Assembly (NCBI RefSeq): GCF_940670685.1
Contig: NZ_OW711693.1
Span: 310,001 to 374,000, forward strand
Reading direction: 5' to 3'
From: Anaeropeptidivorans aminofermentans
Lineage (GTDB): Bacteria > Bacillota > Clostridia > Lachnospirales > UBA5962
Length of the DNA stretch: 64,000 bases
Program-made: the position numbers and the translations under genes
Part shown: positions 2 to 57,777 of the stretch, piece by piece
Numbering within the stretch: the first letter of the stretch is position 1
Layout: every line of letters begins with the position of its first letter
Notes under the pieces: generated by a model
Told to the model about the DNA's origin: nothing
Database searches by the model: none
Seen by the model: the letters and a program-made list of their open reading frames with translations, nothing else

Positions 2-466
2 TTTCAAGAGCTTACTCGTTCAGGTGTTAAAACTACGTCGAAAATCATTTCTTACAGAATATTATGGGACGAGAACAAGTTCATGGAAATCTTTGATTGC
101 GGTCCATTAGATAATATCATAGAGATTTCAAGGCTGCGATATGCAGATGACGACGTTTTTTCTATACAGACTATATATCTTTTGGAAGAGGTTTTTCCCG
201 ATTTTAACCCATGGGGCCTTGTGGGTAACCCTACACAGGATATTCTCTCCACAGGCTATAATATAGAAATAGGCAGCACCGTTCAGGTGGTAAATGTCGC
301 TTCTTCGAGCAAAAGGCAAAGTGTTCTTTTAAACATTCCCCAGAAAACTCCCCTTTTATTTACGAAAAGTACTATGTATACGAAGGACAAGCGGGTTATT
401 GAATATCAGGAAACCTATGTAAACACAAATAAAATACCTTATTCTTATCGGGTAAATATGGGCTGA
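2..466 (+). CDS. GntR-family regulator, C-terminal UTRA domain (5' truncated)
   Basis: The reading frame is open from base 2 and ends at TAG/TGA-type stop 464-466, giving 154 residues. The ending (NKIPYSYRVNMG), the run of beta strands and the 'TPLLFTKSTMYTKDKRVIEYQETYV' style segment match the effector-binding UTRA domain of HutC/FarR-type GntR regulators, which bind a small ligand and release DNA. The N-terminal winged helix must lie upstream of the window. An internal ATG at base 83 is not the true start because the frame continues upstream with UTRA-like sequence. The ligand cannot be told; sugar or nucleoside metabolites are common for the family. Confidence 0.8.
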   Translation, partial: FQELTRSGVKTTSKIISYRILWDENKFMEIFDCGPLDNIIEISRLRYADDDVFSIQTIYLLEEVFPDFNPWGLVGNPTQDILSTGYNIEIGSTVQVVNVASSSKRQSVLLNIPQKTPLLFTKSTMYTKDKRVIEYQETYVNTNKIPYSYRVNMG

Positions 467-4700: not shown

Positions 4701-4860
4701 GGGCGTGTCTGAAAACTCCAAACTCTAGGATATTTTGCCATAAAAGCGCGACTTCATCGTTGTAAATCCTCAAGATAGCACCGCTATCTTTGCGGTTTTC
4801 TCCTCGAATTCACACTTTCTTACAAAATATCCGTCGGTTTTCCGGTTTTCAGACACTGCC
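4701..4860. repeat. R2 repeat, copy 1 (160 bp, MITE-like)
   Basis: Left end GGGCGTGTCTGAAAA and right end TTTTCAGACACTGCC are inverted repeats, with TA directly outside both ends. The interior (TAGGATATTTTGCCATAAAA...ACTTCATCG...CTCCTCGAATTCACAC) matches the copy at 57526-57751 almost base for base, but lacks that copy's inner palindrome. There is no ORF. Confidence 0.75.
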
Positions 4861-23327: not shown

Positions 23328-23526
23328 GGCATTGTTTGCAAAAAAGTGTGAATTCGAGGAGAAAACCGCAGAGATAGCATGCATTTACATTTTTGCTTTA
23401 TGCAAAAATGTTGAGCGTACAGGTTTACCCTGGGTAAACCTGTACGGCATATCTTGAGGATTTTCAACGAAGAAGTCATACCTTTTAGGCAAAATAAACT
23501 AGAGTTTTGATTTTACAAACAAGCCC
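23328..23526. repeat. R2 repeat, copy 3 (199 bp, inverted, diverged)
   Basis: Ends GGCATTGTTTGCAAAA and TTTTACAAACAAGCC are inverted repeats flanked by TA. The interior AAGTGTGAATTCGAGGAGAA...TTGAGGATTTTCAACGAAGA is the reverse complement of copies 1 and 2. It carries the inner palindrome (GTACAGGTTTACCC...GGGTAAACCTGTAC) also present in the copy at 57526-57751. Confidence 0.7.
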
Positions 23527-30923: not shown

Positions 30924-31373
30924 GTGCTTAGAATAAAGCTTGATTATTTGAAAGAGCTTCTTGATAAAAAAATGGGGGCGTTAAGTAAAATATATAATAT
31001 CACCGAAAACCAGAATATGATTTTATTAAGCAAAGAAAGCTCTCCGGAAGCCAATGTGTTTTTCGCGGAAATGAATAAGGAGAAGCTTCATTTAATCGAT
31101 GAGGTGATAGACCTTGACAGGCTTTTTCAGTCCTCCTTTAAAGAAATAGAAGATAAATTAGACGAAGCCGGAAAAGAATACCCGGAAACCGTAAAAAATA
31201 TGCAGACCCTTATTAATGAAATCCTTGAAAAAGATATTTCCATAAGAGCATGGGAACAAAAAAACAAAGAAATCCTTGATCAAATCAAAAAACCTTCCCA
31301 AAAACCTGTTCAAAAGGCAGGGAAGAATTATATATTAAATAGGTATAAAAGCAATTCGAAAAAGGATTCTTAG
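30924..31373 (+). CDS. Small coiled-coil protein, possibly FlgN-like
   Basis: The 149-residue protein is nearly all helical, with heptad-like spacing (LDYLKELLDKKMGALSKIYNITENQN, EKLHLIDEVIDLDRLFQSSFKEIEDKL) and a lysine-rich tail. This resembles flagellar chaperone FlgN-type proteins, but no flagellar gene is in the window, so the name is tentative. It starts with GTG after a strong GAGGAGGG. The TAG stop (31371-31373) coincides with the first bases of an R2 repeat, so the original C-terminus may have been altered. It lies just upstream of rpmG but under a separate promoter. Confidence 0.6.
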   Translation: MLRIKLDYLKELLDKKMGALSKIYNITENQNMILLSKESSPEANVFFAEMNKEKLHLIDEVIDLDRLFQSSFKEIEDKLDEAGKEYPETVKNMQTLINEILEKDISIRAWEQKNKEILDQIKKPSQKPVQKAGKNYILNRYKSNSKKDS

Positions 31374-31490
31374 GGCACAGCTGAAAGATTGAGAATCCAG
31401 AATATTTTGCCGTAACAATACGGCTTCTTCATTAAAAGCCTTCGAATGTACATTTTCGTACAATATCCGGAAGTTTGACTATTTTTAGAT
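31373..31490. repeat. R2 repeat, copy 4 (diverged, right end unclear)
   Basis: TAGGGCACAGCTGAAAGATTGAGAATCCAGAATATTTTGCCGTAA follows R2 copy 1 position by position with substitutions, then CTTCTTCAT and ACAATATCCGGAAG match the inner parts. The right terminal repeat is not clear. Confidence 0.5.
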
Positions 31491-57435: not shown

Positions 57436-57777
57436 TATAGTAAGTTTCTCATAAAAAAGTAACAAAAACCGATTCACTGAAGGTTTAAAAGCATAGATGA
57501 CTTTTGTGAATATACGGTTTTGTTAGGGCGTGTCTGAAAACTCCAAACTCTAGGATATTTTGCCATAAAAGTGCGACTTCATCGTCGAAAATCCTCAAGA
57601 TATGCCGTGCAGGTTTACCCAGGGTAAACCTGCACGCTCAACATTTTTGCATAAAGCAAAAATGTAAATGCATGCTATCTTTGCGGTTTTCTCCTCGAAT
57701 TCACACTTCCTTACAAAATATCCGTCGGTTTTCCGGTTTTCAGACACTGCCTAGGGTATAACTTTAAATTTACTATA
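57436..57777. repeat. R1 repeat interrupted by an R2 element
   Basis: The left part (TATAGTAAGTTTCTCATAAAA...ATATACGGTTTTGTTA, to 57525) and right part (GGGTATAACTTTAAATTTAC..., from 57754) together make one ordinary R1 copy. An R2 element at 57526-57751 splits it at GTTA. Confidence 0.75.
57526..57751. repeat. R2 repeat, copy 2 (226 bp), inserted in R1
   Basis: Ends GGGCGTGTCTGAAAA / TTTTCAGACACTGCC are flanked by TA on both sides. The interior matches copy 1 at 4701-4860 nearly exactly, with an extra 66-base block that includes the palindrome GTGCAGGTTTACCC-A-GGGTAAACCTGCAC (about 57607-57636). Confidence 0.8.

Follow-up and report, generated by a model that had tools for sequence, protein, structure and literature searches.

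How a 226-bp element (R2) came to lie within a copy of a different repeat (R1), and which transposase carried it there, is the question raised by this locus of Anaeropeptidivorans aminofermentans. We analyzed a window of 64,000 nucleotides (the whole stretch of DNA under study), corresponding to positions 310001-374000 of a closed genome of 3,757,330 bases. In the preliminary description, R2 splits the R1 copy, with TA outside both of its ends here and in two further copies in the window; the coordinates and ends of the element proved exact, and TA was seen on both sides of all 3 copies (Table 1). R2 is a recently mobile miniature inverted-repeat transposable element (MITE) of the IS5/IS427 type, a kind of family that is already known.

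Table 1. Features of the R2 insertion, other R2 copies in the window, and IS5-relic elements (window coordinates, except for the last 2 rows, which give genome coordinates)
Feature	Coordinates	Strand	Remarks
R2 MITE, 226 bp, 164-bp-class core with tip cassette alpha	57526..57751	+	Single-hairpin fold
Target duplication, left TA (TTAG target)	57524..57525	.	
Target duplication, right TA	57752..57753	.	
Terminal inverted repeat, left, GGGCGTGTCTGAAAA	57526..57540	+	Same end on IS5/IS427-type elements
Terminal inverted repeat, right, GGCAGTGTCTGAAAA read on - strand	57737..57751	-	
Optional tip cassette alpha, ~66 bp, two hairpins, missing in 4701 copy	57603..57669 (boundaries +-4 bp)	+	Alignment to 164-bp core
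Interrupted R1 repeat, left part	57436..57525	+	
Interrupted R1 repeat, right end	57754..57777	+	
R2 copy, core only, 164 bp including both TAs	4701..4860	+	
R2 copy with cassette alpha, ~27-bp internal deletion in right arm	23328..23526	-	
Fourth R2 copy, degenerate, missing from the preliminary list	about 31371..31490	+	Repeat family D7; covariance-model match 31388-31481, E 1e-6
TA-flanked IS5-relic element	2462141-2462406 (L345 1450-1715)		Retains IS5 transposase C-terminal stretch
TA-flanked IS5-relic element	232333-232597 (L346 1418-1682)		Retains IS5 transposase C-terminal stretch

The right arm of R1 has the layout GAATATACGGTTTTG-spacer-AAATTTACTATA, and the spacer measured 15 in 49 of 71 arms, 17 in 1, and 13 in none. 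Rejoining the interrupted arm gave a spacer of 15 if a single TA was retained, 13 if both were dropped, and 17 if both stayed; the flanks do restore an ordinary R1 arm, as had been proposed, with the standard length regained only if one TA is kept. Because the rejoined arm reaches 15 only in that case, one TA is the target and the other its duplicate. The restored arm, GTTAGGGTATAAC, differs from the usual GTTACTGTTTAAC by 3 substitutions, so the host R1 copy had either diverged beforehand or has drifted since. The arm-length reconstruction also makes R1 older than R2 at the 57524 locus. The proposed order, R1 first and R2 later, thus holds here but not as a general order of the families, because R1-like repeats are nested in several R2 copies (e.g., the elements at 2934435, 3125142, 221009, and 2467001); the R1 and R2 families were mobile during overlapping periods. 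R1 is far the commoner of the two, with 309 first-look candidates genome-wide (90-bp query), and its arm AGTAACAAAA is common to a third repeat type, whose end is CATAAACGGCTTAA.

Elsewhere in the genome, R2 recurs as a discrete unit, with approximately 50 paired copies delimited. A genome scan for the R2 ends, allowing up to 3 mismatches, gave 115 matches (57 forward and 58 reverse) versus 10 for a reversed control pattern, and BLAST with R2 returned 58 pieces. The features of a MITE are present, the element being short, noncoding, multicopy, and bounded by terminal inverted repeats that mismatch each other at 2 bases. In the 38 copies with both TAs intact, the base before TA was T or C without exception, and the base after it was A or G in 36; targets were TTAA (10 copies), TTAG (9), CTAA (9), and CTAG (8), with the consensus YTAR. 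No copy was placed inside an uninterrupted open reading frame of at least 120 aa. Two minimal derivatives of 50 bp (255253-255302 and 3412756-3412805) consist of hardly more than the two R2 ends.

An empty site was identified by comparison with the MAG UBA11329 (locus L198, genome G039), which has 97-99.9% identity to this genome in shared stretches. Contig C67 of UBA11329 carries an R2 copy whose flanks map to one uninterrupted site here, 2179827-2179828, and the flank alignments overlap at this site by 2 bases, TA, so that exactly one TA is duplicated. In a second BLAST, the flanks aligned over 1472 bp at 99.9% and over 1502 bp at 99.1%. Just the two ends of this copy could be read because its interior is an NN assembly gap. 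The preliminary description had looked to relatives lacking R2 at the 57524 site; the empty site lies at a different locus and bears out a TA duplication, and a search of UBA11329 for the orthologue of the 57524 site returned repeat matches only. At the remaining comparable R2 sites, both genomes carry the element. Since a near-identical genome carries R2 at a site that is still empty here, R2 moved recently. Apparent deletions between the 2 genomes were discarded as NN assembly gaps. The stretch 743876-744746 is contiguous in this genome, and its two blocks are separated by ~4.5 kb in UBA11329 contig C140 (L338), reflecting sequence either gained by UBA11329 or lost from this genome.

The polymorphism could also be read in reverse, with the same IS427-type MITE occupying the site ancestrally and being excised precisely from this genome, without any gain in UBA11329. 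The base before TA differs between the two (A here, C in UBA11329; L265 1472-1475 versus 2179827), and A was never seen before TA at other occupied sites, which fits such a history. We consider it improbable, however, as an insertion that duplicates TA explains the difference more simply, and a precise loss must also remove one TA. The A/C difference, at the edge of a left flank of about 99.9% identity, may have arisen by chance or when the element inserted.

With respect to the transposase responsible, GTDB contigs were searched for the R2 end YTAGGGCGTGTCTGAAAA; figures for foreign genomes refer to the matches listed. At least 6 genomes carry IS5/IS427-type elements with the identical 17-nt left end (L205, L106, and L163 among them), and end matches leading into IS5-family transposase genes were found, among the matches listed, at 10 loci (L101, L106, L130, L149, L163, L173, L186, L191, L196, and L205). 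Products of these IS5-type elements, where fragments were long enough to test, matched Pfam PF13340 (DUF4096) and PF01609 (DDE_Tnp_1). The element of P. dokdonensis (L205) is complete at 897 bp including the TAs, is identical to R2-type ends on both sides, and sits in a CTAA target, and ISLpl3-like elements on plasmids bear the closely related ends CTAGGGACTGTCTGAAAA, with CTAG flanks. Duplications of 2 bp have been reported for IS427-group elements (PMC3281130). R2 resembles the IS427 group of the IS5 family, including ISLpl3 and the P. dokdonensis element, in its terminal repeats, TA duplication, and YTAR/CTAG flanks, whereas it has no coding capacity and measures 164-305 bp in its common forms.

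In this genome, profile searches with PF01609 and PF13340 were negative, with no intact IS427-type transposase, and a direct protein search recovered 3 C-terminal fragments of IS5 transposases. Two of the fragments sit in TA-flanked elements of 265-266 bp with related ends, TAGAGCATGTTTTGAAA (Table 1), which are apparently a second MITE family of internally deleted IS5-type insertion sequences. A transposase gene with matching R2 ends, which the preliminary description proposed to search for in the genome, is thus represented only by IS5-type relics, two of them in elements with related ends, and this chromosome no longer encodes a matching IS5-type transposase intact. No intact IS427-type transposase was recognized in UBA11329, where the 2 PF01609 matches (L303 and L304) are ISAs1-/IS4-type in appearance and without R2 ends.

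Judging from the identical ends in other genomes and the IS5-type relics here, the mobilizer of R2 is most likely an IS427-type transposase. R2 is very probably a non-autonomous IS5-family (IS427-type) MITE moved in trans by a DDE transposase of this type, which would recognize the ends GGGCGTGTCTGAAAA/GGCAGTGTCTGAAAA and insert the element at YTAR with duplication of the central TA; at 57524, R2 would have landed in this manner in a pre-existing R1 repeat. Weighing against this reading are that neither genome yielded an intact IS427-type transposase, which current activity would call for although a MITE can do without one, the 2-base mismatch between the R2 ends, the A/C difference at the polymorphic site, and the gapped interior of the UBA11329 copy. 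The IS630/Tc1-like mobilization favored by the preliminary description could account for the TA duplication and for CTAG among the 4 common targets, as IS630 elements use TA-duplicating/CTAG-like targets. It is nevertheless strongly disfavored, and we regard an IS630/Tc1-mariner-type mobilizer as very unlikely, because the R2 ends flank IS5/IS427-type genes elsewhere, and because only IS5-type relics, with no PF13358 (DDE_3) gene, were found in the closed genome. Further, no IS630-type gene was recognized beside R2-like ends in the inspected foreign stretches, and R2 shows no marked preference among TTAA, TTAG, CTAA, and CTAG. The likely mobilizer is thereby corrected from IS630/Tc1 to the IS5/IS427 type, and R2 offers a clean transposition footprint along with an empty-site polymorphism in a genome without an intact matching transposase.

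We analyzed the anatomy of R2 with respect to folding and internal modules. The core, 164 bp including both TAs, forms one long imperfect hairpin (-53.5 kcal/mol, z -7.8), and the 226-bp R2, cassette included, also folds into one hairpin (-90.1 kcal/mol, z -12.2). Across 30 aligned R2 copies, standard pairs made up 96% of paired cells, and double changes occurred in 9 of 32 pairs, with the kinship of the copies uncontrolled; this conservation of pairs and the compensatory changes are no more than suggestive. No match to a curated Rfam family was found for R2. Optional cassettes occupy three fixed points, with ~66 bp at the tip, ~60 bp near core position 103, and ~75 bp near core positions 128-136, and their presence or absence gives rise to the size classes 164, 230, 239, 299, and 305. 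The strong folding, the compensatory changes, the absence of copies from long uninterrupted open reading frames, and the hairpin cassettes might favor an alternative in which R2 does not move as an element but is a structured RNA, or a regulatory hairpin in the DNA, that spread through recombination or gene conversion. This alternative is very unlikely, being contradicted as a full account by the empty site with its clean TA duplication and at odds with the YTAR specificity and the insertion into a repeat. A secondary RNA role for R2 is possible.

Most matches to the R2 end, among those listed, belonged to ~164-bp elements in Paenibacillus, Enterococcus, Cohnella, and Clostridia, and 58 of the 71 foreign elements among the matches listed measured 163-166 bp (length window 140-175; the mode was unchanged when ends were paired over a wider range). 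The R2 interior, stripped of the ends by which the elements had been retrieved, served to build a covariance model that was applied to 0.7 Mb of foreign DNA. The 5 best foreign matches of the model were L125 from a Myxococcales MAG (E 9e-4) and 4 in Enterococcus (E 1e-3 to 2.6e-3), each coinciding with an element, and no significant match was obtained on the Paenibacillus elements. Enterococcus interiors thus appear related to that of R2. When the core interior was searched as a profile of sequence without structure, the Myxococcales L125 (E 1e-6) was the only match besides UBA11329, and a narrower profile of the R2 center gave weak Enterococcus matches (E 0.006 and above). Searches of 38 relatives from R2's host family or order recovered no R2, and neither did those of plasmids and phages.

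A tentative and less likely reading places R2 in a broad superfamily of hairpin MITEs that depend on IS427-type elements, with length held at ~164 bp and a tip conserved across Bacillota and beyond. In this lineage, three exchangeable cassettes would have been gained at fixed positions to give the discrete size classes, which would suggest that the folded form itself, as RNA or extruded DNA, is selected for transposition or a host-side role. Hairpin shape and length as a constraint on the movement of IS5-type MITEs become testable through the fixed length and the cassettes, which are partly shared across genera.

A literature search with the R2 end sequences returned nothing relevant. Efa-1 of E. 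faecalis is 163 bp long and present in 65 copies (PMC2267715), and a passage in PMC3733652, citing De Gregorio 2009, names the EFAR elements as MITEs. These enterococcal palindromic repeats resemble R2 in their ~164-bp size, hairpin, and intergenic place, and a link of R2 to Efa-1/EFAR, likened by description rather than sequence, is plausible. Over the full R2 interior, matches at E 1e-3 to 2.6e-3 were obtained to elements in Enterococcus sp. BWB1-3, whose host genus and size would suggest that they are EFAR.

BOX of S. pneumoniae and ERIC with insertions in Yersinia are modular MITE-like repeats with a hairpin core and optional internal modules. R2 shares this architecture but has other ends and targets, and its cassettes occupy three distinct sites.
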